Positions 105 to 22,600 of a stretch of 32,203 nucleotides of DNA are shown here, piece after piece. The translations under genes were made by a program, and so were the position numbers. Source of the stretch: Treponema sp. (GTDB lineage: Bacteria; Spirochaetota; Spirochaetia; Treponematales; Breznakiellaceae); NCBI GenBank assembly GCA_012517385.1, contig JAAYUZ010000018.1:1-32203 (forward strand), given 5' to 3'. The notes below the pieces were generated by a model. The model did not search any database and was not told the DNA's origin. It was given only the letters and a program-made list of their open reading frames with translations. Every line of letters starts with the position of its first letter. The first letter of the stretch is position 1.

Positions 105-122
105 ACGATGATATACTAGAAT
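105..122 (+). promoter_or_regulatory. Possible GntR half-operator upstream of the GH8 gene
   Basis: The right half, TACTAGAAT, closely resembles the right half of the operator at 4798-4815 (TACTAGTAT). The left half matches poorly (about 4 of 9 symmetric positions), so this is at best one good half-site. It lies before the terminator at 127-155. The TATACT inside it could serve as a -10 element, but no convincing -35 was found. Confidence 0.25.
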
Positions 123-155: not shown

Positions 156-170
156 GTGACGAGGTGCATA

Positions 171-1274
171 ATGCTAAACCAAAAATCCTATCTTGAACAG
201 CTTGGGTATAGTCGTGATGAAATTGAGCAGCGGCTTCTGAATGCATGGAAGACCCTGTTCGAAGGTCCTGAAGATGAACGTATTTATTTTGAAGCAGGCC
301 CTGATATGGGCTATATGCTTGATACGGGAAATATCGATGTACGGACCGAAGGTCAATCCTATGGTATGATGATGGCAGTACAGATGAATCGTCAGGATAT
401 ATTTGATAGGATTTGGAAATGGACCATGACCTATATGTATATGGATCAAGGACCTAATGCGGGCTATTTTGCCTGGTCCTGCAGTCCCGATGGCAGCAAA
501 AACTCCTACGGTCCTGCTCCTGATGGTGAAGAATACTTTGCCATGGCCCTCTTTTTTGCTTCCCATCGCTGGGGCGACCGGGAGTCTCCCTTTAATTACA
601 GCCAGCAGGCTCGGGAACTCCTTTCTCATTGCATTCATAAGGGCGAACGGGAACCAGGGGACCCCATGTGGGATCCGGAGAATTACCTCATCAAGTTTAT
701 TCCCAATTGTGATTTTACCGACCCATCGTATCATCTCCCCCACTTTTATGAACTCTTTGCCCGCTGGGCAAACCCTGAGGATCGCCTTTTTTGGCAAAAA
801 GCCGCCGAGGCAAGCCGGGAATTTCTGCCACGGGCCTGTCATCCCGTCACCGGTTTGGCCCCTGAATATTCCTATTATGACGGGAAGCCTAACTTTTATA
901 ACGATCATGGCGATTTTTACAGTGACTCCTATAGGGTGGCAGCAAACCTTGGATTGGATGCACTCTGGTTCGGACCACGGTCCTATCAGAAAGAGATAAT
1001 CGACGCAATCCACCGATTTTTTGCGGACAAAAAACCCGAAGACTATCGTTGGTATAAGATTGATGGGACTCCACGGCCGGAGCCTGCTTTACATCCCGTG
1101 GGACTCCTGGCCACCAATGCCATGGGGGCTCTGGCTACCGAAGGTCCCCTTGCAGAAAACATGGTCCGTCTTTTCTGGAATACACCCCTCCGCAAAGGAG
1201 ATCGACGGTATTATGACAATTGCCTCTACTTCTTTGCAATGCTCGCCCTAAGCGGCAATTATAAAATCTATTGA
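171..1274 (+). CDS. GH8 reducing-end xylose-releasing exo-oligoxylanase (Rex-like)
   Basis: This 367-residue protein fits the Rex group of glycoside hydrolase family 8, which removes single xylose units from the reducing end of xylo-oligosaccharides with inversion. The family's general-acid motif is visible as DVRTEGQSYGMMM with Glu at about residue 60. The general-base region is visible as DFYSDSYRV near residue 250. Length agrees with known Rex enzymes (about 380 residues). There is no signal peptide, so it should act in the cytoplasm on imported oligosaccharides. The ATG at 171 was chosen over an upstream in-frame GTG at 156 because GAGGTG (161-166) lies just before it. Its end overlaps the convergent GH2 gene by seven bases, and its terminator lies inside that gene. 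A broader GH8 specificity is possible but less likely. Confidence 0.88.
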   Translation: MLNQKSYLEQLGYSRDEIEQRLLNAWKTLFEGPEDERIYFEAGPDMGYMLDTGNIDVRTEGQSYGMMMAVQMNRQDIFDRIWKWTMTYMYMDQGPNAGYFAWSCSPDGSKNSYGPAPDGEEYFAMALFFASHRWGDRESPFNYSQQARELLSHCIHKGEREPGDPMWDPENYLIKFIPNCDFTDPSYHLPHFYELFARWANPEDRLFWQKAAEASREFLPRACHPVTGLAPEYSYYDGKPNFYNDHGDFYSDSYRVAANLGLDALWFGPRSYQKEIIDAIHRFFADKKPEDYRWYKIDGTPRPEPALHPVGLLATNAMGALATEGPLAENMVRLFWNTPLRKGDRRYYDNCLYFFAMLALSGNYKIY

Positions 1275-4200
1275 AACTGAAACCATCCAAAATCGAAGGA
1301 TGAACCGGGCAGAAAAATAAATGAAACCTGCAATCTCTGAGATTGCAGGTTTTTTGATAATAGTGGCAGAGTAAAGTCTTTCTCTATTGGTTGTTCAGAA
1401 TGCTCAAAATCAATCAGGTGTACCTGTTCAATTCCTGCCCCCGAAAATCTGATTTGTATGGAATTTTTTTCTGTTAGAGATCGGCCATAGATACGTAGGG
1501 TATTAAAAGTCTTTGTATCAAAATGCAAATTCCTAAAGGCAATGGTTACATTATTCCCAATTGCTTTGATACCCCAATCAGTTAGGATATACTGGTCGCC
1601 ATACAGCTCGTCATACTCATTTGCATATATTCGTGTATGAGCACGGTTTTGTTTTTCAAAAATAAAGCCCTTAATATGCATTTTAGCAGTGGTTACAAAA
1701 TATATCGATTGTAGCAGCCTGAGTCTACGATTCAGATGATAGGTAGCTTCCTGATATACATTCCATATACTCTTTTTTTTGTATATAAAATTTCCTAGCT
1801 TAATGCTGCCTTCTCCCTCAGGGTATCCCTGCCATATTTCAAGCCCATAGGCTTCATTACTGAGGGTAAATATGGGAAGGCTTATTGTGTCAGATCCATC
1901 GGTACCAAAATCAAGATCCCTGTAGCCCACGATGGTGGTTATATCCCGGGCGGTTGCAATACCCTGTTCATTTCCCGGACCAACACCATCATTGGCATCA
2001 TCATAGAGTCCTGCAGAACAGAATTGATAGGGATCCTTATACAGGGTTCCGAAACCAGCAGCGGTGAACTCCAGTTGGCTGATGAGCCTAACGTGATCTG
2101 TACCATTTGTACTGCTACATCGAATAACAAAATTGCCATCGCCCCTTGGATTTACCAGCGCCCGATTCCCCTGGACTGTAACGGTAGCCAGGGGAGAGGG
2201 AATGCCACCTTCGTTTACCACTGACCATTGTAGATCCTGGTAACTTGCCTGTATTGGGTAGAGGTATGCTTCCAGTTCTGCAAATCCTGATTCCGGTGTA
2301 AGATGCTGGCTCCCATTACAGAGATGGAGTTCAATTTTACGGAGAGGAATTTCATCTTCCTTACCTGTCCTTATAATACAAGGGCTATTTCGGTCTATGA
2401 CAGCATAACAATCTACATCTGTTTTTTCTGTAGGAACCGCAGTAATAGTTATTGTCTCATCAGGCAACATGGGTGAAGTAACGGTAACAGAAATGAGTCC
2501 CGTTTCTTTCGTTGAGCCGACAAGGGCCATCAATTTACCATTAAAAAGACGCTTACTGGTACCTTTGTAAGAATCATTATCTGTGCTGTCTCCATTATCA
2601 AGACCACGTAGTCTTCCTGGACCCTGCATCGTTATATGAACACGATTTGCAGCATTTTCTACAGTATTTCCAAAGGCATCGAGGGTACTTATCTCTATAA
2701 AGACAAGATCCCTTCCATCTGCTTCCAAAAAGGTTTTGGATGCCCGCAGGTTGAGCCGAACCGGATCACCAAAGGAGCGACGGATTGAACGGGCAATACA
2801 TCGCCCCTGCTCATCATAGGCTAGGGCCGTTAATTCTCCCATCTCATAGGGAATGGTCCACCAGGCAGTATGTAAAGTTCCCTGTTCATCCATCAAGTTT
2901 TTAGTTCCTATGAGTCGATTATTACAGTACAGGGCAACACGGGGAGCATTTGAATAGATGCGGATATCGATCATCTGCCCGGGGTTCCAATCCCAATAAG
3001 GAAAGAGATGTATCATGGGAGACTTTTTATAATCAGTCCAAGCTGCTTGATAAAGATAAAAAGAATCTTTGGGAAAGCCAGCTGAATCAATCTGGCCAAA
3101 ATACGAGTTTTTAGTGTGATATGGTGTGGGTTCACCAAGATAATCAAAACCGCTCCAAATGAACATCCCTAACGAATGGGGAGTTATTCTGTCATTATTA
3201 ATGCATTCCTCCGGGGATCGGGCGCCCCAACTAGTCGGGCTGTTTCCTAGGGCAGAACATTGCTGATCCGCTTCAGTTAAGATCGTTCTCTTATATGGGA
3301 AATGGTAGATTCCCCTGCTTTGTACTACCGATGAGGTTTCACTACCATAGATGATCCAATCCGGGTGCATCCGGTGATGCAGATCATAGTATTTTTCACC
3401 GTAATTATAACCTGCATATTTAAGAATATCCGCACACTTTTGTGCATTTTCCCATGGCATATAATTTGAAGCCAACGTGACCGGTGCATTACTTTTAGGA
3501 TCATATTGACGGACTGTATTCATCAATAGTTGTGTTAGTTCTTCTCCTCTTTGAGATATATGGGTGTCATAAATTTCATTACCAATACTCCACATCAAAA
3601 GGCTTGGATGATTTCGGTCTCTGCGGACCCAGCTTTCTATATCCTTGCTGAACCATTGGGGAAAAAAACGGGCATAGTCATATTCGGTTTTTGGCCGTTC
3701 CCACATGTCGAATGCTTCTGATACAATAAGAAATCCCAACTCATCAGCCAGATCCATTAGCTGTGGATCTGGCATATTGTGACTGGTACGGATGGCATTA
3801 ACACCCATCTGTTTTAAAAGTTGCATACGGTATCGCTGAGCCTCTCTATTAAAGGCTGCTCCGAGGGCCCCCAGATCGTGATGTTCACAGGTTCCCTGTA
3901 GTTTTGTAGGATTCCCATTAACAATAAGCCCTTTATCTGGATCGAATAGCAAGGTGCGGAACCCTACAGGATTAATGACCTGGTCAATACAATGTCCTTC
4001 ATGGTCAAGGAGTTTTGTTTCTAGGATATAGAGGTGGGGCTGCTGGGGGCTCCAAAGGCAGGGTTGCTCAACTCTAAGTACCTGTTTGATGCTATGCATG
4101 GGATCATTTGATTGTGGGTGAAGCTGTTCCTGTAGTTCTACTACTTTAATGTTACCTGAATATAGGGTCTGGATGATTGTTATCCTATCTTTTATGAATA

Positions 4201-4708
4201 ATTCTGTTTCTATTTCGACGTTCCAGTGGTTCCCTGCATTCTTCGTGGATATATAGACTCCATAAGTGGGAATGTAGGAAGCTCCCCGCTTTATAAGCCA
4301 CACATTGCGATAGATCCCTGCTCCTGAATACCAGCGGCTGTTTGGTGCCTGGTACAGGACCTTAAGGACCAGTGTATTGGTTCCTTCCCGCAGAAAGGGT
4401 GTTAGCTCATGTTCAAAGGATGAATACCCATATTTCCATTCACCTACAAACGATCCATTACAAAAGAGGGTACTATCCATATAGACCCCATCGAAGCGGA
4501 TCGAAACGCACCCGGCATCGGAGGGCTTATATGAAAATTGGGTTTGATACCAGCCGATACCATTTTCATATAAATTATCTGTATTATAAATAAGCCAGTC
4601 GTGGGGCAATTCTACTGGAAAGAATTGCAGATCCTTCCAGTCCTGAACATCCAAAGGTGTTTTTGCAAAGGTCCACCCATTATTAAACAGAGTTTTAGTA
4701 GTTTTCAT
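1268..4708 (-). CDS. Glycoside hydrolase family 2 enzyme (beta-galactosidase-like) with C-terminal CBM-like domains
   Basis: The 1146-residue product begins with the GH2 sugar-binding domain (about 1-160, ending GAGIYRNVWL), an Ig-like domain (to about 270) and a TIM barrel. The barrel carries the acid/base motif WSIGNEIYD (Glu about 378) and the nucleophile motif IYGSETSS (Glu about 457). An Ig-like/DUF4982-type segment follows at roughly 600-800. The last 300 residues look like two beta-sandwich, CBM6-like modules, the final one ending FDFGWFQF. No signal peptide is seen, so it is probably cytoplasmic. GH2 covers beta-galactosidase, beta-glucuronidase and others; the xylan setting suggests a side-chain sugar, but the substrate cannot be fixed from sequence. 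No good Shine-Dalgarno precedes the ATG. It is divergent from the transporter and shares a 109-bp regulatory region with it. Confidence 0.85.
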   Translation of the reverse strand: MKTTKTLFNNGWTFAKTPLDVQDWKDLQFFPVELPHDWLIYNTDNLYENGIGWYQTQFSYKPSDAGCVSIRFDGVYMDSTLFCNGSFVGEWKYGYSSFEHELTPFLREGTNTLVLKVLYQAPNSRWYSGAGIYRNVWLIKRGASYIPTYGVYISTKNAGNHWNVEIETELFIKDRITIIQTLYSGNIKVVELQEQLHPQSNDPMHSIKQVLRVEQPCLWSPQQPHLYILETKLLDHEGHCIDQVINPVGFRTLLFDPDKGLIVNGNPTKLQGTCEHHDLGALGAAFNREAQRYRMQLLKQMGVNAIRTSHNMPDPQLMDLADELGFLIVSEAFDMWERPKTEYDYARFFPQWFSKDIESWVRRDRNHPSLLMWSIGNEIYDTHISQRGEELTQLLMNTVRQYDPKSNAPVTLASNYMPWENAQKCADILKYAGYNYGEKYYDLHHRMHPDWIIYGSETSSVVQSRGIYHFPYKRTILTEADQQCSALGNSPTSWGARSPEECINNDRITPHSLGMFIWSGFDYLGEPTPYHTKNSYFGQIDSAGFPKDSFYLYQAAWTDYKKSPMIHLFPYWDWNPGQMIDIRIYSNAPRVALYCNNRLIGTKNLMDEQGTLHTAWWTIPYEMGELTALAYDEQGRCIARSIRRSFGDPVRLNLRASKTFLEADGRDLVFIEISTLDAFGNTVENAANRVHITMQGPGRLRGLDNGDSTDNDSYKGTSKRLFNGKLMALVGSTKETGLISVTVTSPMLPDETITITAVPTEKTDVDCYAVIDRNSPCIIRTGKEDEIPLRKIELHLCNGSQHLTPESGFAELEAYLYPIQASYQDLQWSVVNEGGIPSPLATVTVQGNRALVNPRGDGNFVIRCSSTNGTDHVRLISQLEFTAAGFGTLYKDPYQFCSAGLYDDANDGVGPGNEQGIATARDITTIVGYRDLDFGTDGSDTISLPIFTLSNEAYGLEIWQGYPEGEGSIKLGNFIYKKKSIWNVYQEATYHLNRRLRLLQSIYFVTTAKMHIKGFIFEKQNRAHTRIYANEYDELYGDQYILTDWGIKAIGNNVTIAFRNLHFDTKTFNTLRIYGRSLTEKNSIQIRFSGAGIEQVHLIDFEHSEQPIEKDFTLPLLSKNLQSQRLQVSFIFLPGSSFDFGWFQFQ
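1327..1355 (+). terminator. Rho-independent terminator for GH8, embedded in the GH2 coding sequence
   Basis: A perfect 10-bp inverted repeat (CCTGCAATCT / AGATTGCAGG) with a 3-base loop is followed by six T on the plus strand. It sits about 50 bases after the GH8 stop but inside the 3' end of the convergent GH2 gene, where it encodes part of an LQSQRLQ stretch. On the minus strand the following T-run is weak, so it should act mainly on GH8 transcripts. Confidence 0.85.
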
Positions 4709-4722
4709 AATTGCTATCAGAT

Positions 4723-4760
4723 ATACTTGTATATTAGTATAATGATTAGATGATTTGCAA
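4723..4760 (-). promoter_or_regulatory. GH2 promoter with overlapping GntR-type operator (site A)
   Basis: On the minus strand TTGCAA (4755-4760) and TAATAT (4731-4736) are spaced by 18 bases. The 18-bp imperfect palindrome ATACTTGTATATTAGTAT (4723-4740, 7 of 9 positions symmetric) covers the -10. The same type of palindrome occurs at 4798-4815 and 14552-14569. A repressor bound here would block GH2 transcription. Binding by the GntR protein encoded at 13768-14496 is inferred from shared sites, not shown. Confidence 0.6.
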
Positions 4761-4780
4761 GAGCCTCAATAAAAAATTGA

Positions 4781-4815
4781 TTGACAGAATTAAATATATG
4801 CTAATATACTAGTAT
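4781..4815 (+). promoter_or_regulatory. Transporter operon promoter with overlapping GntR-type operator (site B)
   Basis: TTGACA (4781-4786) and TATACT (4805-4810) are spaced by 18 bases, a strong vegetative-type promoter. The imperfect palindrome ATGCTAATATACTAGTAT (4798-4815, 7 of 9 symmetric) covers the -10 and contains the perfect 10-mer ATACTAGTAT. Transcription would start at or next to the ATG at 4818, so the mRNA may be leaderless. Confidence 0.7.
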
Positions 4816-4817
4816 TC

Positions 4818-5771
4818 ATGAAGACGCCTATAATGAGTACAGGAACACGATGGTCATCACATGGTGCTTCCCGGTATATCCAACGATATTGGTCGTTGTA
4901 TGCAATGCTGTTACTGCCTATGGTATATTTTCTGGTTTTTAAATATATACCGATGACGTATATACAGATTGCCTTTAAGAATTATAGTATTGTTAAAAGT
5001 CCCTGGGAAATGCCCTGGGCGGCACATAATGGATTTGAATATTTTATTCAGGCTTTTCAAAACAGGGATTTCATAGATGCATTACGGAATACCATTCTGC
5101 TCAATGTCCTGGATTTAATAATAGGTTTTCCGGCACCGATCATACTGGCGATAATCTTGAATGAAATATCCCATCGAGCACTTAAACGGATTACCCAAAC
5201 CGTTGCATATATGCCTCATTTTTTGTCCTGGATAATCATAGCTGGAATGGCACTACAGCTTTTAGCGCCCTCTAATGGTCTGATCAATATTGTATTGCAG
5301 CGATTAGGCATGCAGCCGATTCCTTTTCTGAACGAACCGGTCTATTGGGTTGCTACCTATGTGATTTTGGGTATTTGGCAGAGTGTTGGATGGAATACAA
5401 TTATCTATCTTGCAGCTATTACAAGCATTAATCCCGAACTGTATGAATCTGCCGCAATTGACGGCGCCAGCAGATTACAACGGATTTGGCATGTTACCTT
5501 GCCGGGTATTAGATCTACCATTATAGTGCTCCTCATTTTGTCCCTTGGCCGTATTTTAGGGAGTGATTTCGATCGGCCCTATGCGTTGCGAAATCCCCTG
5601 GTGAAAGAGGTCTCTGATGTTCTTTCCATTTTTATCTACAACTACGGAATTCGGGGATTACGATTTTCTTTAACTACAGCTGTTGGCCTCTTCCAGTCAG
5701 TTGTTAGTGTGAGTTTCCTTTTATTTGCAGATTATCTCGCCAAAAAATTTGGTGAGCGTGGAATTATTTAG
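4818..5771 (+). CDS. Carbohydrate ABC transporter permease (LplB/UgpA type)
   Basis: The 317-residue integral membrane protein has about six hydrophobic segments. Its BPD-transporter EAA loop reads AAIDGASRLQRIWHVTLPGI, the site that contacts the ATPase. It pairs with the permease that follows 10 bases downstream, and the two form the channel of a family-1 (CUT1-like) importer. The setting before aguA, uxuA and the xylosidase points to xylo-oligosaccharides or aldouronic acids as cargo. The start is uncertain. The ATG at 4818 lies seven bases after a TATACT -10 and has no Shine-Dalgarno, so translation may be leaderless or may begin at the in-frame ATG at 4833. No ABC ATPase gene is present in the window, as is usual for systems that share an MsmX-type ATPase. 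Confidence 0.9.
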   Translation: MKTPIMSTGTRWSSHGASRYIQRYWSLYAMLLLPMVYFLVFKYIPMTYIQIAFKNYSIVKSPWEMPWAAHNGFEYFIQAFQNRDFIDALRNTILLNVLDLIIGFPAPIILAIILNEISHRALKRITQTVAYMPHFLSWIIIAGMALQLLAPSNGLINIVLQRLGMQPIPFLNEPVYWVATYVILGIWQSVGWNTIIYLAAITSINPELYESAAIDGASRLQRIWHVTLPGIRSTIIVLLILSLGRILGSDFDRPYALRNPLVKEVSDVLSIFIYNYGIRGLRFSLTTAVGLFQSVVSVSFLLFADYLAKKFGERGII

Positions 5772-5781
5772 GAGAACGAAG

Positions 5782-6651
5782 ATGGTTAATGCTAGGGAGT
5801 CTAAATATTTAGATGTTATTTTTATTACCGTATGTATAGTTATCATTATTGTTTGCCTGCTGCCTATGGTGACCCTTCTTGCCCGTTCTGTAAGTTCTCC
5901 TGAATATTTAATACGCAATCAGGTTACCCTCTGGCCAAAGGGTTTTACACTCGATGCATACAGATATGTGCTGACCGACTCTAAATACACCTGGTCTCTT
6001 CTCTGGACCACCATGTTGACCGTGGCTGGTACCTTATTATCCCTGTTTATGACGACCCTGGCAGCATTTCCCCTCACCTATGACAAATTAAAGGGGCGAA
6101 CGATCATAAGCTCCTTGATCCTTTTTACCATGTATTTTAATGCAGGTACCATTCCTATGTATCTGTTGTTAAAAGATATTGGCCTATTAAATAAACCGCT
6201 TGTGCTCATCGTGCCCTACTGTTTGAGTGTATTTAATCTTATTCTGATGAGAAATTATTTTTATACCATTCCTGCCAGTCTTCGAGAGTCAGCGGAAATG
6301 GATGGAGCTGGGCCGGTGCGAATCCTCCTCAGTATATATATTCCTCTTTCGGCTCCCATTATAGCAACCCTTGCCCTTTTTTATGCCGTGGGTCGGTGGA
6401 ATGGGTTTTCCGACGCTCTAATGTTTATGAATAAACGGGAATATTTTCCTATTCAGCTTTTACTATACAACTTGATAAATGCTGTTTCGAGCCTGGAAAC
6501 CTATTCAACGGAGGGTTTTACCCAGCCAGGCTTAAGTGAATCATTAAAGGCTGCGGCGATCATGTTTGCCACCATCCCTATTCTGTTTGTTTATCCCTGG
6601 CTTCAGAAATATTTCATCCAGGGAGTAACCCTGGGTGCAATAAAAGAATAG
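5782..6651 (+). CDS. Carbohydrate ABC transporter permease (LplC/YtcP/UgpE type)
   Basis: This is the second permease of the importer, 289 residues with about six membrane segments. The EAA loop is visible as ESAEMDGAGPVRILLSIYIP. The C-terminal PWLQKYFIQGVTLGAIKE is typical of the YtcP/LplC group. The ATG at 5782 is preceded by AGGAGA at a good distance. A longer in-frame opening from 5725 would overlap the previous gene and is not needed. It is co-transcribed with the first permease and the binding-protein gene. The LplBC-like type usually imports acidic or complex oligosaccharides in gut and soil bacteria, which agrees with an aldouronate substrate but does not prove it. Confidence 0.9.
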   Translation: MVNARESKYLDVIFITVCIVIIIVCLLPMVTLLARSVSSPEYLIRNQVTLWPKGFTLDAYRYVLTDSKYTWSLLWTTMLTVAGTLLSLFMTTLAAFPLTYDKLKGRTIISSLILFTMYFNAGTIPMYLLLKDIGLLNKPLVLIVPYCLSVFNLILMRNYFYTIPASLRESAEMDGAGPVRILLSIYIPLSAPIIATLALFYAVGRWNGFSDALMFMNKREYFPIQLLLYNLINAVSSLETYSTEGFTQPGLSESLKAAAIMFATIPILFVYPWLQKYFIQGVTLGAIKE

Positions 6652-6719
6652 GGCAAAAAAATGCTGTGGGAATCCGCTGCTCTTAAGGGCAGTCACAATA
6701 TAATAAGGAGGATAGGGCT

Positions 6720-8345
6720 ATGAAAAAAGCTTTATTGGTGTTTCTCGGTTTGCTTACAGCCGCATTGCTGATGGCTGCAGGCAATGCTGACACAGGGCAG
6801 ACTGGGGGAACAAAAATTGCTGACCTGGCAGATGGTCGTTTTACTCAGACTAAGACCATCACGGTAGAAGTCTATGACCGTGGTACAGGGACCCCGCCGG
6901 AAGATAACTTCTTTGCGCGCTTTATTAAAGAAGGCATGCTTCGGGACCATAATGTCAATGTAGTATTCAAACCGGTACCCCGCTGGACAGAAGTACAGGC
7001 ATTGAATAATTTGCTGGCCGCAGGAGAAGCCCCTGACATCTGTGTTACCTACGATTATCCCACGATCCAAACCTATGCAAATATGGGTGGTGTAATGGAT
7101 TTGAATCCCTACCTTGAACAATTCAAACCATACTTAAAAAACCTATGGGATCTGCTAGGCGATAATAACATATACTACGATCAGGATCCAAAAACAAAAC
7201 AGCTGTGGGCTATAGAGGGAATCAGAAAGCCCAATACCAGGACCACCACTTTTATTCGTGAAGACTGGTTAAAAAAGCTGAACCTTCCGGAACCAAAAAC
7301 TCTGGCAGAATTTGAAAAAACCCTAAAAGCATTCCGTGATAATGCTGAGAAGCTCCTTGGGAAAGATAAGGACAAGATGATTCCCTTCTTCCTGACAGTA
7401 GATGTAGGTTGGTATATCAATAATCTGGCAGACTCCTTTGTGCCTGATAAGACCAGTGATGAACAGCTCTATATTTATGGTTTTGATGACCGGCATCTGC
7501 TCTGGCCTAAATATAAGGAAGCTGTCCGGGTTGTAAATAAGTGGTATAACGAAGGCCTTATCTGGAAGGATTTTGCCCTTTATCCTGTTGGAGATCAGAC
7601 TGGAGATAATCTCATTAAATCCGGTTATGTAGGAGCCTTTATACAGAATTGGGATTATCCCTATCGGGATGGTGAAAAAGGTATCCATGGTAATCTTCAG
7701 AAACTGATCGGGCCTGAGGCTGCCTTTATTGCGATTGATACATTTAAGAATGATGCCGGCAAGTACCGGAAGTACCTTGGCCCAGCTGTAGATCGCAAGG
7801 TCTTCTTCCCAGCCACCAATAAGGAGCCTCTGGCTTCTCTCTTGTATCTTAATTGGATCAGCAAACTGGACAACCGAAAATTCCTCGCAATTGGTGAGCC
7901 TGGTGTACATCATGACGTACTTCCAGACGGAGCGGTCAAGATGAAGCCGGTCGAAGGGGATAAGCGCATCAATTCGCTCTACAATATCGATTATACCATT
8001 ACCTTGAATGGCCTCGATCTGGGTGATCCTGCGCTGAATGCCCGGTCTCTGGCTCTTGGGTACGGCGGAGTAGATCCGCGGTATATTGAAAAGGCCTATA
8101 AGACCCAGACGGTGGATGTCCGTATTATACCGGCTTTTAAGGTTGGAGAAATTAAGGCAGAACAGGGGATGGGTCCAGCCCTTTCTGAAAAACGGAATAC
8201 CCTGCTGGTAAAAGCGGTGGTTGCAAAGACCAGCGACTTTGATAAGGTCTTTGACGCTGGTATGCAGGATTACCTCCGTTCTGGCGGCCAGGCAATCATT
8301 GATGAACGAAAAGCAAAGATTGATGAATTAAAGAAATCAAAGTAA
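6720..8345 (+). CDS. Extracellular (periplasmic) solute-binding protein of the sugar ABC importer
   Basis: The 541-residue protein starts with a clear signal peptide (MKKALLVFLGLLTAALLMAAG). A family-1-type, LplA-like binding protein follows, rich in aromatic residues and with typical segments such as APDICVTYDY (about residues 100-109). No cysteine lies at the end of the signal peptide, so it is probably a soluble periplasmic protein rather than the lipoprotein seen in Gram-positive relatives. This supports a diderm host. The start is fixed by AAGGAGG at 6705-6711. A small CTGCTC/GGGCAG hairpin (6677-6692) lies just upstream. The gene completes the importer with the two permeases; two larger hairpins follow it. 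The ligand is probably an aldouronic acid or xylo-oligosaccharide, inferred from the neighbours. Confidence 0.88.
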   Translation: MKKALLVFLGLLTAALLMAAGNADTGQTGGTKIADLADGRFTQTKTITVEVYDRGTGTPPEDNFFARFIKEGMLRDHNVNVVFKPVPRWTEVQALNNLLAAGEAPDICVTYDYPTIQTYANMGGVMDLNPYLEQFKPYLKNLWDLLGDNNIYYDQDPKTKQLWAIEGIRKPNTRTTTFIREDWLKKLNLPEPKTLAEFEKTLKAFRDNAEKLLGKDKDKMIPFFLTVDVGWYINNLADSFVPDKTSDEQLYIYGFDDRHLLWPKYKEAVRVVNKWYNEGLIWKDFALYPVGDQTGDNLIKSGYVGAFIQNWDYPYRDGEKGIHGNLQKLIGPEAAFIAIDTFKNDAGKYRKYLGPAVDRKVFFPATNKEPLASLLYLNWISKLDNRKFLAIGEPGVHHDVLPDGAVKMKPVEGDKRINSLYNIDYTITLNGLDLGDPALNARSLALGYGGVDPRYIEKAYKTQTVDVRIIPAFKVGEIKAEQGMGPALSEKRNTLLVKAVVAKTSDFDKVFDAGMQDYLRSGGQAIIDERKAKIDELKKSK

Positions 8346-8464: not shown

Positions 8465-9535
8465 ATGAAAATTCTATTCAGATGGTTTGGCAAAGAATAT
8501 GACACGGTTTCCCTTGATAAAATCAGACAGTTGCCACACATTAATGGTATCATCAGCACATTGTACACCAAGCCTGCCGGTGAAGCATGGAACAGGCATG
8601 AAATCCGTTTATTAAAAGCCGTTATAGAAAAGTCTGGTTTGTCATTACAAGGCATAGAAAGTGTTAATGTTCATGAATCGATAAAAGCCGGTTTTCCGGA
8701 GCGAGATAGATATATAGAAAATTATATAAAAACTCTTACGGCCCTGGGGGAAGAGGGAATTCATCTGGTGGTCTATAATTTTATGCCCGTATTTGACTGG
8801 ATCCGTTCTTCTCTGGCAAAACCGCGGCTCGATGGGACCACCGTACTAGCTTATGATGAGGAACAGATCATTAATCTTGGCCCGGAAAAACTTTTCGGAT
8901 GGCTACAAGGTCAGGCAAAGGGATTCCTTTTGCCAGGCTGGGAGCCGGAGCGAATGTCTCGGGTAAAGGAACTTATCGAATATTATCGTGGTAGTTCAGA
9001 GGAAACTCTCTTTAATAACCTGGAATATTTTCTTAAGGCTATAATACCAACCTGTGAAACATATGGTATTAAATTGGCCCTCCATCCCGACGATCCTCCC
9101 TGGAGTATATTCGGAATCCCCCGGATTGTGACAAAATTGGATAATTTAAGACGAATACTTAATCTGAACCCTAGCCCTTCTCATGGCTTAACGATCTGTA
9201 CTGGTTCTTTAGGGATCCATCCTGAAAATGATGTGATCCATATTATTCAGGAACTGCATGACCGAATCCATTTTGTTCATCTTCGTAATTTAAAGACCCT
9301 TGGATCGGGTAAGTTTGAAGAGACCGCCCATCTCTCCTGTGATGGAGATTTGGATATATATAATATATTGAAAACCCTTTACGATTATGGGTACGATGGT
9401 TGTATGCGACCCGATCATGGCAGAGCAATCTGGGGAGAGCTTGCCATGCCTGGCTATGGTTTATATGACCAGGCGCTTGGGTCTGCATATATGTATGGAT
9501 TATGGGAAGCTATATCAAAATCTAATCCTAAATAA
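8465..9535 (+). CDS. uxuA: Mannonate dehydratase
   Basis: The 356-residue protein matches UxuA throughout. Examples are the N-terminal MKILFRWFG, the central GIHLVVYNFMPVFDWIRS, the metal-site region LALHPDDPPWSIFGIPRI, and the C-terminal CMRPDHGRAIWGE. UxuA dehydrates D-mannonate to 2-keto-3-deoxygluconate in the Kornberg hexuronate pathway, using a divalent metal in the cytoplasm. Here it would process glucuronate released by the neighbouring alpha-glucuronidase. The other steps (uronate isomerase, fructuronate reductase, KDG kinase and aldolase) are not in the window. No clear Shine-Dalgarno precedes the ATG. It follows the double hairpin after the binding-protein gene and is 16 bases from aguA. 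Confidence 0.95.
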   Translation: MKILFRWFGKEYDTVSLDKIRQLPHINGIISTLYTKPAGEAWNRHEIRLLKAVIEKSGLSLQGIESVNVHESIKAGFPERDRYIENYIKTLTALGEEGIHLVVYNFMPVFDWIRSSLAKPRLDGTTVLAYDEEQIINLGPEKLFGWLQGQAKGFLLPGWEPERMSRVKELIEYYRGSSEETLFNNLEYFLKAIIPTCETYGIKLALHPDDPPWSIFGIPRIVTKLDNLRRILNLNPSPSHGLTICTGSLGIHPENDVIHIIQELHDRIHFVHLRNLKTLGSGKFEETAHLSCDGDLDIYNILKTLYDYGYDGCMRPDHGRAIWGELAMPGYGLYDQALGSAYMYGLWEAISKSNPK

Positions 9536-9551
9536 GAACTGGAGTACATAG

Positions 9552-11582
9552 ATGAGTGCATATTCGCTCTGCTGGCTTGATTATACTAATGCTTATTGTA
9601 AACAGGGTTTTTATACAAAGTATAAAGAACAGGTATTGCATGATATTCGGGGATATTGGGTAGATCCCGCAGTGAAAGATACTGCTCCCCGAATAGAAAT
9701 ACAGCGGTTTTTTCAGGAATATTTTGATGTATCGATCCCTGAATTAAAGGAGTATCATGAGCACTCCCTGGTATGTAGTCTGAATGACGTTGCCGAAGCG
9801 GGTAAGGCTGTTCTGAAGAACGAATCCTTTAGTATCAACTATATTCAAGATAAACATATCCTCATGATTATTGGCGGTTCTGAATCGGGCCTGCTCTATG
9901 GGCTTTTTTATCTATTTAGTATCCTTCAGCAGCAGAAAGATTATACCACTATAACTGTCCAGGAAGGACCTAAAAATCCACTACGACTTCTGAATCACTG
10001 GGATAATCTTGACGGCACCATTGAACGAGGATACTCGGGAACTTCTATTTTCTTTAACGACAACCGTATAATTAATGATCCGGAGAGGCACCAGGAATAT
10101 GCACGGCTCCTTGCTTCGGTCGGAATAAATGGCACCGTTATCAACAATGTCAATGTAAAGAATCGATCTCCCTTTCTTATTACCGATTCGTACCTGCCTG
10201 ATCTGGCAAGATTGGCTGCCATTTTGCGATCATATCATATCCGCCTGTATCTCAGCGTAAACTTTATGAGCCCTGTGATTGTCGGAGGGCTCGAAACAGC
10301 TGATCCACTTGACCCCCAGGTAATTTCCTGGTGGCAAGCCCAGGTCCGTTTGATTTATAAGTGGATTCCCGATTTTGGCGGCTTCCTTGTAAAGGCTGAT
10401 TCTGAATATAATCCGGGACCTCATACTTATGGCCGATCCCAATCCGATGGGGCAAATATGCTGGCCCGGGTATTACAACCCTATGGAGGCGTTTTAATAT
10501 GGCGTGCCTTTGTGTACAAGTTGCAGGATTGGCGTGATACGAATATAGACAGGGCCAGGGCTGCGTATGATATCTTTAGACCTCTGGATGGTCAATTCGA
10601 AGATAATGTGATTTTACAAATAAAAAATGGTCCCCATGATTTTCAGGTCCGTGAACCCGTATCCCCCCTTTTCGGAACCATGGCCAAAACGAACCAGATA
10701 CTTGAATTGCAGATAACCCAGGAATACACAGGACATCAGATTGATCTGTGTTATCTCGCTCCCCAATGGAAACAGGTTTTAGACTTTGACCCCCATATAT
10801 CAGAAAAAAATGTAAAACTTTCTTCTATAATAAACGGTGATTTCTATAAACGTCCAGCGGGAGGTATGGCAGGGGTATCTAATATAGGTAACGATTATAA
10901 TTGGACGGGGCATTGGCTGGCTCAGGCAAATTGGTATGCCTTTGGGAAACTCGCCTGGAATCCTGATCTTGCTTCGGAGGAAATTGCCAGAGAGTGGATC
11001 CTTCGCAGTCTCACCAACGAACCATCTGCTGTTGATACCATCGTCACCATTTTGGAACGTTCATGGCCCATCTACGAAAAATATACAACTCCCTTTGGAC
11101 TTGGATGGATGGTTACACCTGGAACTCATTATGGTCCAAATCCTGAAGGGTATGAATATTCTATCTGGGGCACCTATCATCGGGCTGACACTAAGGAGAT
11201 TGGTGTGGACCGTACCAGTAGAGGAACTGGTTTTAGTGGCCAATATTCTGGTTATTGGAAACGCATCTTCGATGACCGAGATCTCTGTCCTGAGACGCTT
11301 ATCCTGTTTTTCCACCGCCTTCCCTATACATATGTGATGAAAAACGGAAAAACCTTGCTGCAGAATTATTATGATGCTCATTTTCAAGGTTATGAGGAAA
11401 TGAGGGATCTGCAGCAGCAATGGCAGAGCGTGGAACATGCAATAGAACCGCGTATTTTTGCAGAGGTGTCAGAACGTTTTGTGAAACAGGAAGAGAATGC
11501 CCGGCAATGGCGGGATGTTATTAATAGTTATTTCTACAGAAGAACCGGTATTAAGGATGAGATGGGAAGACCCCTCTATTGA
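9552..11582 (+). CDS. aguA: Alpha-glucuronidase, GH67
   Basis: The 676-residue protein is a full-length GH67 enzyme, which removes (4-O-methyl)glucuronic acid from the non-reducing end of aldouronic acids. The general acid is in KADSEYNPGP (Glu 285), and the paired base residues are Asp about 363 in NGPHDFQVREP and Glu about 390. These positions are nearly identical to those of the Geobacillus enzyme (285, 364, 392). There is no signal peptide, as expected for the intracellular GH67 group. GGAG precedes the ATG by seven bases. It lies between uxuA and the GH3 xylosidase in the same direction, forming a compact glucuronoxylan cassette. Confidence 0.96.
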   Translation: MSAYSLCWLDYTNAYCKQGFYTKYKEQVLHDIRGYWVDPAVKDTAPRIEIQRFFQEYFDVSIPELKEYHEHSLVCSLNDVAEAGKAVLKNESFSINYIQDKHILMIIGGSESGLLYGLFYLFSILQQQKDYTTITVQEGPKNPLRLLNHWDNLDGTIERGYSGTSIFFNDNRIINDPERHQEYARLLASVGINGTVINNVNVKNRSPFLITDSYLPDLARLAAILRSYHIRLYLSVNFMSPVIVGGLETADPLDPQVISWWQAQVRLIYKWIPDFGGFLVKADSEYNPGPHTYGRSQSDGANMLARVLQPYGGVLIWRAFVYKLQDWRDTNIDRARAAYDIFRPLDGQFEDNVILQIKNGPHDFQVREPVSPLFGTMAKTNQILELQITQEYTGHQIDLCYLAPQWKQVLDFDPHISEKNVKLSSIINGDFYKRPAGGMAGVSNIGNDYNWTGHWLAQANWYAFGKLAWNPDLASEEIAREWILRSLTNEPSAVDTIVTILERSWPIYEKYTTPFGLGWMVTPGTHYGPNPEGYEYSIWGTYHRADTKEIGVDRTSRGTGFSGQYSGYWKRIFDDRDLCPETLILFFHRLPYTYVMKNGKTLLQNYYDAHFQGYEEMRDLQQQWQSVEHAIEPRIFAEVSERFVKQEENARQWRDVINSYFYRRTGIKDEMGRPLY

Positions 11583-11666
11583 GTATCTCTTTATCTATCC
11601 TCAAAATTCCCTATAGCAACTTAATGAGGTATTGCATAGTATTGGTGCATCAAGGAGCAGAACGTA

Positions 11667-13754
11667 ATGGACAGACAGCTAATTATAGAAACAATGGTAA
11701 CCCACATGACCTTGGAAGAAAAAGTTGGCCTTATGGTACATCGGGCTAAGGGGGTTTCTCGCTTTGGAATCCCAGATTATAACTGGTGGAATGAAGCCCT
11801 GCATGGTGTGGCCAATAATGGGGAGGCAACAGTGTTCCCCCAGGCTATAGGGTTAGCTGCAACCTTTGATGATCAATTGCTGTATCGGATAGCGGAGGCC
11901 ATCTCTATAGAAGCCCGGGCAAAGTTTCATGCGGTAGGTAAAGAACAGGCTGAGCGATTTCATCGTGGGCTTACCTTCTGGGCTCCAAACATAAATATTT
12001 TCCGGGACCCCCGCTGGGGCAGGGGCCAGGAAACATATGGAGAAGACCCGTACCTGACAAGCCGTATGGGAACCGCCTATGTCCGTGGTTTACAGGGCAA
12101 TGATCCCTACTACCTCAGGGCTGCCGCATGTGCAAAGCATTTTGCGGTACACTCCGGACCGGAGGGATTGCGGCATACCTTTGATGCACAGGTTTCTCAA
12201 AAGGATCTGGAGGAGACCTATTTACCAGCCTTTAAGGCCCTGGTTGATGCGGGGGTCGAAAGTGTGATGGGTGCCTATAACCGTGTTAATGGAGAACCTG
12301 CCTGCGGGAGTTCCTACTTGTTGCAACACAAATTACGGGGCCAATGGCAGTTTAAAGGGCACGTTGTTTCAGATTGTTGGGCGATCTGTGACTTTCATAA
12401 AAATCACAAGGTGACTCAGGATATTCTTGAGTCCCTTGCGCTGGCATTAAAAACAGGCTGTGACCTTAATTGTGGTGATGCCTACTACTATTTGGCTGAG
12501 GCAGTACAAAAGGGCTATATCAGTGAAGCTGATATCGATCGTTCTGTGACTAGACTTCTTATGACACTGGACAAGCTGGGCTTGATACATGATGATGGTC
12601 CCTATCAAGGGATAGATCTTCAGCAGGTTAATTGGGAAGCCCATCATTCCTTAGCCTTGGAAGCCGCTGAAAAGTCAATTGTTCTATTAAAAAATAACGG
12701 TATTCTTCCTTTAAATAAGGAAAAGCTTTCGTATATTTACGTGACTGGCCCCAATGCAACAAACATTGATGCGTTGCTGGGGAATTATGCGGGAGTATCA
12801 TCGAATTTACAAACCATTCTTGAGGCTGTCGTTAAGGAAGCTGGCCCTGAAATCACCGTCACCTACAAGAAAGGATGCCCTCTGGCAGAGAAACGGATTA
12901 ATCCGAATGACTGGGCCAGCGGTGTTACTAAATACGCCGATGTTACCATTGCAGTTGTCGGCAGGGATATCAGCCTGGAGGGTGAAGAAGGGGACGCCAT
13001 CCTTTCATCAACCTATGGGGATTTTGAAGATCTGGACCTGAGTGATGAACAGCTAACCTATCTCCAGCGCCTGAAAGAAAGCGGAAAGCCCCTCGTAGTG
13101 GTTCTTATGGGCGGGGCTCCCATCTGTTCTCCCCGGCTGCATGAACTGGCTGATGCAATTCTTATGGCCTGGTACCCTGGACAGGCCGGGGGGACCGCTG
13201 TTGCAAATATTCTTTTTGGGAAAAAGAGCCCTTCAGGGAAACTGCCGGTTACATTCCCTAAATCGGTTCGCCAACTGCCTGAATTTGACAATTATGCTAT
13301 GCAGGGTCGAACCTATCGTTACATGGATGAGGAACCCCTGTACCCCTTTGGTTTTGGACTTTCCTATACAAACATGGAACTTGTTCATGGGGAATGCCGT
13401 TGGTCTTCGGCGGCGCAGGATGAACTTGCCCTGTCGGTGCAAATAAAAAATACCAGTATTAGAGATGGCGAAGAGGTGGTACAGTTGTATATGCACTGGG
13501 CTGATGCTCCCTTTGTGGTTCCCCGCTGGTCTTTAGTAGAATTTATTCGGCTTCCCCTTGCTGCCGGTGAAGTAAAAACAATTGAATTTGTATTACCCCT
13601 GGAGCATTTGCGGTGTATCGATCCTGATGGCCAGGCGGTTCTTCCCACAGGTAGAATACTGTTTTATGCGGGTTTTAACTCTCCAATATCCCAATCTACT
13701 GTTTTAGGCAGCCAGGAGGGAATCACCATGCAAATACAAAGGGATAAAAAATAA
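11667..13754 (+). CDS. Beta-xylosidase / beta-glucosidase, GH3
   Basis: The 695-residue protein has the GH3 order: N-terminal barrel with NWWNEALHG (about 39-47), WAPNINIFRDPRWGRGQETYGEDP, nucleophile motif VVSDCWA (Asp about 236), C-terminal alpha/beta domain with GRDISLEGEEGD, and a fibronectin-III-like end. The NWWNEALHGVA motif is characteristic of the bacterial and plant xylosidase branch of GH3. It lacks a signal peptide and should split imported xylo-oligosaccharides in the cytoplasm. AAGGAG stands nine bases before the ATG. An 84-base gap separates it from aguA. It converges on the GntR gene with only 13 bases between stop codons. The assignment as xylosidase rather than arabinofuranosidase rests on context and the N-terminal motif. 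Confidence 0.9.
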   Translation: MDRQLIIETMVTHMTLEEKVGLMVHRAKGVSRFGIPDYNWWNEALHGVANNGEATVFPQAIGLAATFDDQLLYRIAEAISIEARAKFHAVGKEQAERFHRGLTFWAPNINIFRDPRWGRGQETYGEDPYLTSRMGTAYVRGLQGNDPYYLRAAACAKHFAVHSGPEGLRHTFDAQVSQKDLEETYLPAFKALVDAGVESVMGAYNRVNGEPACGSSYLLQHKLRGQWQFKGHVVSDCWAICDFHKNHKVTQDILESLALALKTGCDLNCGDAYYYLAEAVQKGYISEADIDRSVTRLLMTLDKLGLIHDDGPYQGIDLQQVNWEAHHSLALEAAEKSIVLLKNNGILPLNKEKLSYIYVTGPNATNIDALLGNYAGVSSNLQTILEAVVKEAGPEITVTYKKGCPLAEKRINPNDWASGVTKYADVTIAVVGRDISLEGEEGDAILSSTYGDFEDLDLSDEQLTYLQRLKESGKPLVVVLMGGAPICSPRLHELADAILMAWYPGQAGGTAVANILFGKKSPSGKLPVTFPKSVRQLPEFDNYAMQGRTYRYMDEEPLYPFGFGLSYTNMELVHGECRWSSAAQDELALSVQIKNTSIRDGEEVVQLYMHWADAPFVVPRWSLVEFIRLPLAAGEVKTIEFVLPLEHLRCIDPDGQAVLPTGRILFYAGFNSPISQSTVLGSQEGITMQIQRDKK

Positions 13755-13767
13755 GTGTATATAAGTC

Positions 13768-14496
13768 CTATACCCTATTAATAAAATTGTTTACCAGGGG
13801 ATCCTCGGTGTGTATCGGCAATCTAAAATAATCAGGATATGCATCGAGTAACTCCTGTTCTTGTTTTGAAATCCGTGAAAAATGATCATGAATTAACGAA
13901 AACACTGTTTTTGTATCTTTCTTCTTAAGGAATTCATAAATTTCTTGATGTTGTTCAAAGACGGAATAACGTAATTCTTTATTCCAGAGAGTCATGATCC
14001 GAATTCTTCGGTAATGGCTGGAATTATTAAGAATGAGTTCCCAACTTAATGATTTCTCCGCAAAATGAAAAATACTACGATGGAATTCATCATCCCAATC
14101 AAGAAAAGAAAGAGCATCCGGATCTTTCAGGGATGTTTCCTGATGTAACAGGGCTTTTTCTAAATCTAATAATAACAATTGCAGATTTTTACTAAAGCAT
14201 AATTCAAGAGCCTTTTCTTCCAGACTGGAACGAATGAATTGTTCCTCTTCCACCCTGGAAAGGTCAATTTTAGATACGCTGGTGCCCACTTGAGGTATTA
14301 CATCTACGAGACCTTCCCGCTCAAGCCGGATCAGGGCTTCCCGCACCGGAGTTCGACTGACATCCAATTTTTCTGTAATCTCACGTAAATTTAAGACCTG
14401 GCCGGGTTTAAAATGTAAATTAACGATGTTCTGCCGCAAGGTATGATACACATTATCGCTGATTGAAAATCCCGTAGTTTTCGCCAAGGTCCTCAT
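13768..14496 (-). CDS. GntR-family regulator, FadR/FCD subfamily
   Basis: The 242-residue protein has an N-terminal winged helix (about 10-75; VSRTPVREALIRLEREGLV is the recognition-helix region). An all-helical FCD effector domain follows, with the metal-ligand pattern D-x-x-x-H in DDEFHRSI and a later His in FEQHQEIYEFL. FCD regulators commonly respond to uronates and other organic acids. An autoregulatory site is proposed at 14552-14569, and similar sites lie between GH2 and the transporter, so it probably represses the xylan regulon until a uronic-acid ligand binds. The start has GGAG eight bases upstream. A 13-bp palindrome CTGGAAGTTCCAG (14512-14524) lies in its 5' region; its role is unknown. 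Confidence 0.9.
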   Translation of the reverse strand: MRTLAKTTGFSISDNVYHTLRQNIVNLHFKPGQVLNLREITEKLDVSRTPVREALIRLEREGLVDVIPQVGTSVSKIDLSRVEEEQFIRSSLEEKALELCFSKNLQLLLLDLEKALLHQETSLKDPDALSFLDWDDEFHRSIFHFAEKSLSWELILNNSSHYRRIRIMTLWNKELRYSVFEQHQEIYEFLKKKDTKTVFSLIHDHFSRISKQEQELLDAYPDYFRLPIHTEDPLVNNFINRV

Positions 14497-14551
14497 AGAT
14501 GTTACTCCTAACTGGAAGTTCCAGCTTTCTAATATATATTGATTTATAAAT

Positions 14552-14593
14552 ATCCTAATATATCAGAATAATGATTTTATCTTTGCAGGTCAA
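14552..14593 (-). promoter_or_regulatory. Promoter and autoregulatory operator of the GntR gene (site C)
   Basis: On the minus strand TTGACC (14588-14593) and TATTCT (14565-14570) are spaced by 17 bases. The palindrome ATCCTAATATATCAGAAT (plus strand, 14552-14569; 7 of 9 positions symmetric) starts at the -10 and extends past the expected start of transcription. Its core CTAATATA is shared with site B and, on the reverse strand, with site A. A weaker half-site (CTAATATATATTG) occurs at about 14529-14541. Confidence 0.55.
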
Positions 14594-14634
14594 GATAAAG
14601 TTGACAAGTCTCGTAGGGCCCTGCGGCTCCGGCC

Positions 14635-14762
14635 ATGGCTGCCAATCCCTTCGCTAAGGTGTGCCCCTACTGCGGAGCGGAAAATTTCGTGTAGATGTCC
14701 CCCTTCTGCGGAGCGGGACCTTCCTTGTACCGGACCGAGTGTTTTAACTGAGGCAAGGCCCT
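14635..14762 (+). pseudogene. Decayed zinc-ribbon protein fragment
   Basis: In one frame the sequence reads MAANPFAKVCPYCGAENFV, a TAG stop, MSPFCGAGPSLYRTECFN, a TGA stop, then GKAL. The spacing of CPYCGA, (S)PFCGA and ECFN(C)GKAL looks like a multi-zinc-ribbon segment in which cysteine codons have turned into serine or stop. The DNA shows a matching near-repeat of CTGCGGAGCG about 40 bases apart. It has two in-frame stops and no neighbouring partner, so it is read as debris. The parent family is unknown. Confidence 0.35.
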
Positions 14763-18399: not shown

Positions 18400-19494
<1,095 letters not shown>

Positions 19495-19629: not shown

Positions 19630-19657
19630 TTGACTTGTATACAATCTGGTATATAAT
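19630..19657 (+). promoter_or_regulatory. Promoter of the large catabolic operon with an embedded palindrome
   Basis: TTGACT (19630-19635) and a perfect TATAAT (19652-19657) are spaced by 16 bases. The perfect palindrome TTGTATACAA (19635-19644) lies between them, in the form and place typical of GntR-family operators. The operon's own GntR/FCD gene (26060-26740) is the likeliest binder. Transcription would start near 19664, giving a leader of about 30 bases before the GTG at 19693. Confidence 0.75.
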
Positions 19658-19692
19658 TAAGTCTACAAATAGTGGTGCGGGGAGGTTCTGTT

Positions 19693-22600
19693 GTGAAACA
19701 AGTTCATATTAAGAAAGATACCTATGTCGATTCGGTGTTTTTAATGCTTTTAAGCAAAGACCTGAAGGAACGGCCCGATATCAAAGATGCCACGGTAACC
19801 ATGGGAACTCCCATGAATCTGGATTTGCTTAAAGAACAGGGTTATAGCCTGGAATCCCTGAAGGATGTTACCCCGGCGGACCTGATTATTGCTTTGGATT
19901 GCACTTCTGAAAAAGCCCTGGATGCTGCCCTTTCAGCGGTAGATGATATGCTGGCTGGCAAAAAGAAGTCCAGTTCCACCTCCCTTTCGGGTACTGGATT
20001 ACCCCACAGTAAAACCCTGGACAGCGCCTTAGAACAAATACCCGATGCTAACCTCGCTATTATCTCCGTTCCCGGTATGTATGCGGCCCGGGAAGTCCGG
20101 AAGGCCCTGAATAAGAATCTCCATGTGATGCTCTTTTCGGACAATGTGTCCCTGGAAGATGAAATTTCCTTAAAACGTCTGGCCCGGGAAAAGGGACTCC
20201 TCGTGATGGGGCCCGATTGCGGTACCGCCATCATAGATGGTAAGCCCATCTGTTTTGCCAATGTGGTAGACCGGGGGCCTGTGGGGATCGTGGCCGCTGC
20301 AGGTACGGGACTCCAGGAAGTGTCCTGCCTTATCGACCGTTTTGGCAGCGGGGTAAGTCAAGGTATCGGTACGGGCGGCCGGGACCTTAAGAATGCCCAG
20401 GTGGGGGGAACTACCATGCTTATGGGTATCGAGGCTCTTGGTGCGGACCCCGAAACCAGGGCAATCCTTATTGTTTCTAAGCCCCCCGCACCGGAAGTTG
20501 CTTCCAAGGTAGTACAGGCCCTTGAAAAAACAGGAAAGCCCGCGGTGGTGCATTTTATCGGCCTCAAGACTCAGATAGCAGCGAAGCCCTCAATTCATTT
20601 TGCTTCCAATCTGGAAGAAGCATCCCGTTGGGCGGTGGCCCTTGCAAAGGGCGAACATATTGATGTACAGAGCCGGCGGTCTTGGCCCTTTGATCAATCC
20701 AGGGAAGAAATTGAGGCTCTGGTTGATCAGGAAACCCGCCGTATGTCCAAAGCGCAAAAATATATCCGGGGCTATTATACCGGCGGCACCCTGACCGATG
20801 AGGCCTGGATACTGCTCCATGAGCTTACCGGTGCGGTCTATTCTAATAATCAAACTGACCCTGCCTTTGTTCTGCCTAATCCTAAAAAATCCATTGGTCA
20901 CACCGTTGTGGATCTGGGGGACGATGTATTCACCGTAGGCAGGCCCCATCCCATGATTGATCCCTCTACCCGGACCGAACGGATTGATGCAGAACGGGAT
21001 GATCCGGAAATTGCGGTTGTTCTGGTGGACTGTGTATTAGGCTATGGTTCCCATGAGGACCCGGCGGGCGCAATGATTCCTTCTATTAAAAAGGCTAAGG
21101 AAGCGGCGGAAAAAAGGGGCGGATACCTTTCAGTGATCGCCTCTGTAACCGGCACCCCCGGAGACTTCCAGGGTTTCGAAGCCCAGGTGGCTAAGCTTCG
21201 CAGCGCCGGGGTCATCGTCATGCCGTCGAACTATCAGGCATCGATGCTAGCCCTGAAAATTATGGAGAAAGTAACCGGCAAACCGGCAGCGAGCAGCGTT
21301 GGCGAAAGACCTGCTGCCGGTACGGCAGCTTCGGCTGCCAAGGCCGGGGCTGTTCTGGTAAGTCCATCTGAGTCCATCGGCTCCGCTGTGGGTCCCAAAC
21401 ATATCCTTTCCCTCTTCAGTCACGGGTTAAAGGTCATCAATCTGGGTCTTGAATCCTTTGCAAAAAATCTGAAGGCCTGCGAAACTCAGGTGGTTCATGT
21501 GGATTGGGTGCCCCCAGCTGGCGGGAATACGGAGCTGATTCAGGTTTTGGACCGGCTGGAATCTAAAGCAACCATAGATATTGAAAAAGCCAATGCAGAA
21601 GCGGTGGATCGGATACTCTCAGGAAAGCCGGTTCTCAAAGGTATTGGAACCGCCCTTGACACAATACCCGGTATGAAGCCGAACCTCTTCCTCCATGCGG
21701 GACCGCCCGTAACCTGGGAAAAGATGTGCGGCCCCATGCGGGGTGCTGTTATCGGCGGCATCCTGTATGAGGGTTTGGCAAAAACAGAAGCAGAAGCGGA
21801 AGCCCTCGCTGCATCGGGAAAAATCGAATTTTCACCCTGCCAGGATCATTCGGCTGTCGGGCCTATGGCGGGTATTGTGACCCCCCGGATGCCGGTGTGG
21901 ATCATTGAGAACGAAACCTTTGGCAATCGGACCTATGCTACCCTGAACGAAGGGCTTGGCAAGGTACTGCGCTATGGAGCCTATTCCCATGAAGTGCTGG
22001 ATCGGCTCCGCTGGATGGAGGGCGAACTGGCCCCCATTCTGCAGAAGGCTATCGAAAAACATGGCCCGGTGGATATGCGGAGCCTCATTGTGCAGGCCCT
22101 GCAGATGGGTGACGAAGGCCATAACCGGAACCGGGCCGGAACTTCCCTGGTTATCCGGGAACTGGCTCCCTACCTGGTGATGCTGGATGAAAAGAAGGAA
22201 GCCCTTTCCCGGGTCCTCACCTTTATGCATCAAAATGACCATTTCTTCCTTAATCTTACGATGCCCTCGGCCAAGTCGGTGTTGATGGCCGCCGAAGGTA
22301 TTCCCGGCAGCACGGTCATTACCGCCCAGGGAAGAAACGGCACCGAATTCGGTATCCAGGTTGCGGGGCTTAAGGGCCGCTGGTTTACCGGACCTGCGGG
22401 TATCGTAAATGGTTTATACTTGCCAGGCTTTGGTCCTGAGGATGCGGCTCCCGATATTGGGGACTCGGTTATTACTGAAACAAGCGGTATCGGAGGCTTC
22501 GCCATGGCTGCAGCGCCGGCTATTGTAAAATTCGTAGGTGGTACCCCCGAGGATGCCCTCCGCTTTACCCGGGAGATGTATGAAATCACCCTGGCAGAAA

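Follow-up and report, generated by a model that had tools for sequence, protein, structure and literature searches.

The window analysed here, a stretch of 32,203 nucleotides from Treponema sp. that is the whole of contig 30 in an assembly of 2.97 Mb and 201 contigs, carries a set of similar 18-bp pseudo-palindromes that are very likely the operators of a GntR protein with an FCD effector domain, encoded in the same locus. This protein would be an autoregulated, UxuR-like repressor of glucuronoxylan uptake and degradation that responds to an acid of the uronate pathway. The proposal builds on the conservation of the sites, their overlap with promoters, their spacing, the gene content of the locus and the co-occurrence of the sites with the GntR gene, all of which can be read directly from the genomes. 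Regulator and predicted operators form a new and convincing case of a sugar-acid gene switch of an ordinary kind. For thermophilic spirochaetes they supply a specific cross-phylum binding motif, as predicted, and a list of targets of a glucuronoxylan regulator, and text searches of the literature found no such regulon described for this group. With a few short fragments of DNA and a single protein of 242 residues, the question of the effector can thereby be tested directly. The features are listed in the table below; the gene order from the two permeases and the solute-binding protein over UxuA, GH67 and GH3 to GntR is kept in two genomes of the same genus (G001, G003) and in one of the same family (G018).

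Table. Features of the xylan locus and of the fdrA/allG region, with window coordinates
Feature	Position	Strand	Remarks
Weak fourth candidate operator	105..122	+	upstream of the GH8 xylanase-type gene; 2 mismatches, 12.9 bits
GH8 (xylanase-type) gene	156..1274	+	PF01270
GH2 glycoside hydrolase gene	1268..4708	-	proposed target of A; Pfam
Candidate operator A	4723..4740	-	ATACTAATATACAAGTAT on the GH2 strand; over the weak TTGCAA-18-TAATAT promoter of the GH2 gene
-35 TTGACA of the perm1 promoter	4781..4786	+	18 bp from the -10
Candidate operator B	4798..4815	+	ATGCTAATATACTAGTAT; over the -10 of the transport/uxuA/GH67/GH3 run; ends 2 nt before the ATG at 4818
-10 TATACT of the perm1 promoter	4805-4810	+	inside operator B
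ABC transporter (two permeases, solute-binding protein)	4818..8345	+	proposed target of B; Pfam; order conserved in G001, G003, G018
uxuA (mannonate dehydratase), GH67 alpha-glucuronidase, GH3 beta-xylosidase-like	8465..13754	+	same run; Pfam/NCBIfam
gntR, FadR-subfamily GntR with FCD effector domain	13768..14496	-	proposed repressor; PF00392, PF07729
Candidate operator O2 of gntR, weak second operator	14526..14543	-	ATCAATATATATTAGAAA on the gntR strand; 26 bp downstream of O1
Candidate operator C (O1 of gntR)	14552..14569	-	ATTCTGATATATTAGGAT on the gntR strand; overlaps the -10 TATTCT
Perfect palindrome	19635-19644		TTGTATACAA; in the fdrA/allG promoter; conserved in window, G001, G003
Second GntR gene	26060-26740		in the fdrA/allG cluster

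The sequence-only reading had singled out A, B and C, and for all three the coordinates are exact and 7 of 9 positions are symmetric. By itself such symmetry is weak evidence, as the window holds 66 18-mers with a symmetry of 7/9 or better, and in the intergenic region (109 bp, 76% A+T) two 7/9-symmetric 18-mers are seen vs 0.7 expected. It is the similarity of A and B, the centres of which are 75 bp apart, that is informative: A, read on the reverse strand, agrees with B at 16 of 18 positions, a value that none of 400 dinucleotide shuffles of the intergenic region reached, and the earlier statement that the two match is borne out. C agrees with B at only 14 of 18 positions and would be unconvincing from this similarity alone, but as a candidate operator it is confirmed by independent matrices and by the paired sites at its promoter. 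The consensus of the sites is AT-N-CTA(A/G)TA|TA(T/C)TAG-N-AT, and its 8-bp right half TACTAGTA is itself palindromic, and produces a second match at 8 nt that overlaps the first; additional dimers could be seated on the overlapping sites that this half creates in steps of 8 bp. Overlapping operator-like units in 8-bp steps are also found in G099, where a palindrome of about 28 bp, CTTGTATACTAGTATACTAGTATACAAG, occurs at four places (L079, L081, L082, L083); at one of these it separates a GntR homologue from a TRAP transporter gene.

With B alone as the probe and up to three mismatches allowed, the 2.97-Mb assembly yields B itself, A (two mismatches) and two other places with three mismatches each. 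The pattern ATNCTDRTATAYHAGNAT was also used for a search of the own genome, but it includes the three sites by construction and therefore was not used as proof, for which B alone and external matrices were taken instead. A matrix built only from sites of other species places B (23.9 bits), A (22.5 bits) and C (20.6 bits) as the top three of the window, followed by the site at 105-122; the sequences of A and C were absent from its training set, and that of B was present because it is identical in the relatives. The chance per position to reach a score of 20 is <1e-6 at 72% A+T. A random placement of the sites in A/T-rich DNA, named beforehand as the refutation of the operator proposal, is not what the scan gave, as the best matches in the own genome fall in the xylan locus. 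Two own-genome matches elsewhere were taken as chance, one at C114:28412 (one mismatch) next to a methyltransferase-type gene that has no evident connection with xylan, the other in an unrelated region of C43, and so was a match in G001 at 2400071 inside a sensor-kinase-like ORF. Another G001 site, at 3183600, is upstream of a MATE-like gene with an esterase nearby. The site before the GH8 gene, which the sequence-only reading had not listed, is doubtful as a fourth operator, since neither G001 nor G003 has a counterpart at this position.

The overlap with a -10 element, which had been claimed for all three sites, is clear and conserved at B and good at C; at A it is weak. B is identical at all 18 positions in five genomes (window, G001, G002, G003, G018), and the mean pairwise identity around it rises from 25% at -60 to -36 over 61% in the -35 and spacer to 100% in the operator and falls to 44% in the next 40 bases. 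All five genomes have the same layout TTGACA-18-TATACT-7-ATG, which recurs at uxuA of G018, where the start codon is secure, as the protein aligns with the UxuA of the window from residue 1 on. In each case the -10 ends 7 nt and the operator 2 nt before the ATG (window, G001, G003, G018 and uxuA of G018, with the same block in G002). Since the operator ends so close to the start codon, a leaderless mRNA is predicted. The 182 ORF starts surveyed in DNA of the genus and of G018 usually have a purine-rich ribosome site around -11, and few other candidates for a layout of this type were seen among them. It may be, and we suggest this only tentatively, that the fused block of operator, -10 and ATG produces leaderless mRNAs for the transporter run and for the uxuA of G018, with the repressor switching expression directly at the start codon, in bacteria that have a normal ribosome-binding site at most of their genes. 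Such a leaderless, operator-fused start would be an unusual arrangement, if a small one. The conservation of A is only partial: a degenerate counterpart, CTTGTACGCTAG, lies before GH2 in G003 and G002, the locus of G001 has no GH2, and in G018 there is no site at GH2.

At the promoter of gntR, TTGACC-17-TATTCT on the minus strand (-35 at 14593-14588, -10 at 14570-14565) is overlapped by C. The sequence-only reading knew one site here, and this part of it stands; it had missed O2, so that the promoter has two sites. A matrix free of gntR sites, built from perm1, uxuA, GH10, GH2 and Firmicute sites only, finds its two best non-overlapping matches upstream of gntR at a distance of exactly 26 bp in each of the window, G001, G003 and G018, although O2 of the window is weak with this matrix (6.9 bits). 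This also bears on the possibility that the sites resemble each other only as A/T-rich -10 elements (TATACT/TAATAT) and that no regulator is involved, which we regard as extremely improbable: -10-like sequences do coincide with all of the sites, and the DNA has about 76% A+T, but the conservation extends over the full 18 bp and beyond the -10, the shuffles at 76% A+T gave no 16/18 pair, and the O2 sites, 26 bp downstream of an O1 that overlaps the -10, recur as operator-like palindromes, as does a pair of sites in a Firmicute. The region upstream of gntR (14590-14760) contains zinc-ribbon-like coding remnants (CPYCGAE/CGAG-like, interrupted by stops) and resembles a decayed small gene.

Similar sites are also found outside of the window. 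In G018, GTACTAATATACTAGTAT ends 2 nt before the start codon of uxuA, TTACTAATATACTAGTAT lies before a GH10 xylanase gene on another contig, and a second GH10 gene has a weaker site (16.1 bits) that overlaps a TTGACA-17-TAACAT promoter. A GH11 xylanase with CBM6 is encoded at 18400-19482 of the window with no strong operator before it; in G018 (L073) a copy of 88% identity directly precedes the GH10 gene that bears the operator. The uxaC and Mannitol_dh_C loci have no strong site, and the motif thus is not a mark of every sugar-acid gene. In G000 and G003 (94-95% complete), uxaC and uxuA are present and Mannitol_dh_C (the UxuB-type fructuronate reductase) was not found, and the fructuronate reduction step may use another enzyme in these organisms. 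In a Firmicute MAG (an Epulonipiscium-named record) with a GntR protein of 48% identity, sites of 22.6 and 20.7 bits, scored with a matrix that contained no Firmicute site, lie between uxuAB and a divergent TRAP transporter run that is followed by gntR, and four Saccharibacillus genomes have a ATGCTAGTATGCCAGTAT-type site closely upstream of uxuA. Distant spirochaete homologues of GntR have GTACTAGTATACTAGTTT-type sites upstream of their own gene, CTAGTATACTAG-type sites adjoin the own gntR homologue in G031 and G099, and G034 and G004 have weaker operator-like sites. With this recurrence beside GntR homologues across Firmicutes and distant spirochaetes, the motif tracks the GntR lineage and not the xylan enzymes. 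Judged by the motif, uxuA would be a target, as part of the run behind B, with its own operator in G018, and with the uxuAB and uxuA sites of the Firmicutes.

These data also weigh against another regulator, global or two-component, that would act on the same genes with the GntR gene as a mere passenger. The binding of GntR to the sites is deduced from the genomes, and G002 carries B although GntR was not found in this 89%-complete assembly, but the motif is also upstream of gntR itself with a fixed spacing in four species, it stands beside GntR homologues in distant spirochaetes and Firmicutes that have otherwise different gene sets, and both its two-fold symmetry and its core spacing of 2 bp agree with the FadR/UxuR type (PMC4494728). 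Such a regulator is thus unlikely, and the earlier assignment of the sites as a candidate operator of the xylan-locus GntR gains support from conservation, external matrices and co-occurrence.

The regulator itself has an N-terminal GntR winged helix-turn-helix (PF00392, 71.4 bits) and a C-terminal all-helical FCD domain (PF07729, 54.8 bits), and its orthologues are 79-80% identical in G001 and G003 and 66-67% in G018. Relatives in the PDB are 7u5q and 3fms/3sxy of the GntR family, the latter of which we take to be TM0439. With the NCBIfam UxuR model (PRK10225) it scores 36.9 bits in the HTH region only, far below the cut-off of 442, and it is therefore UxuR-like in its proposed function and not an E. 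coli UxuR. A counterpart in gene content is presumably the UxuR of the glucuronate cluster of Geobacillus stearothermophilus T-6, a GntR regulator beside uxuA and a GH67 gene, for the operator of which nothing usable was found in the open papers. The Asp and His positions of the FCD-pocket metal (DDEFH, SHY, EQH, DHF) are conserved in the close orthologues, and metal binding is predicted.

In comparative work on operators of the FadR subfamily, members of the UxuR type have a core spacing of 2 bp, and divergent promoters with double sites as well as accessory half-sites at 7-12 nt from the centre are described (PMC4494728). The xylan-locus regulator shares with this group the combination of GntR HTH and FCD, the double sites at a divergent promoter and an accessory half-site about 8 nt from the centre. 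Operators of the subfamily are A/T-rich palindromes with TKGT/ACMA boxes. Of these features, the palindrome and the 2-bp core spacing are present, and the GT-N2-AC-type centre is complete in the distant relatives (CTAGTATACTAG), whereas Gracilinema mostly has A/T in place of the G/C of the GT/AC boxes (CTAATATATTAG) and keeps an outer CT/AG as the part that does not vary. E. coli DgoR is likewise a FadR-subfamily sugar-acid repressor with a divalent metal in the pocket and two inverted repeats that overlap the promoter, but its substrate is D-galactonate and its genes are other ones, so that the relationship is a general one of family only (PMC7674646). Joint control of xylan hydrolases and transport is known from XynR of Caldicellulosiruptor bescii, which controls also uxuAB, and from XylR and KdgR of Thermotoga maritima, but these belong to unrelated protein families (LacI, ROK, IclR) (PMC8579813, PMC3750489).

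In the proposed mechanism, a GntR dimer would bind the pseudo-palindromic consensus. At B it would lie over the start region and the -10 of the transporter-uxuA-GH67-GH3 run, at A over the start region of GH2, and binding to C and O2 at its own promoter would result in negative autoregulation. As B contains the -10, a bound protein would exclude RNA polymerase, and as B and C both overlap their -10s, repression and autorepression fit the positions of the sites. An activator function of the same regulator, at all or some sites, has a precedent in FCD regulators such as CitO (PMC4746285), but the sites overlap the -10 and start region instead of lying upstream of the -35, and near-consensus TTGACA promoters need no activator, which makes this very unlikely. 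For the repressor, we infer that the effector is a uronate-pathway acid more likely than a xylo-oligosaccharide, because of the metal positions in the FCD pocket, the use of a divalent metal in ligand binding by DgoR and CitO (PMC7674646, PMC4746285), and uxuA as the cross-phylum target. A glucuronoxylan-derived acid (glucuronate, fructuronate, mannonate or aldobiouronate) would then bind the metal-containing pocket and free the DNA.

The second GntR gene of the window belongs to another cluster, and the perfect palindrome TTGTATACAA is its probable operator, so that the two GntR regulators of the window appear to use distinct operators. At 19672-22815, one protein of 1047 residues unites CoA-ligase domains of the FdrA type with AllG, a subunit of oxamate carbamoyltransferase; after it come genes for a cyclase, a thiolase, and proteins resembling carbamate kinase and xanthine dehydrogenase.
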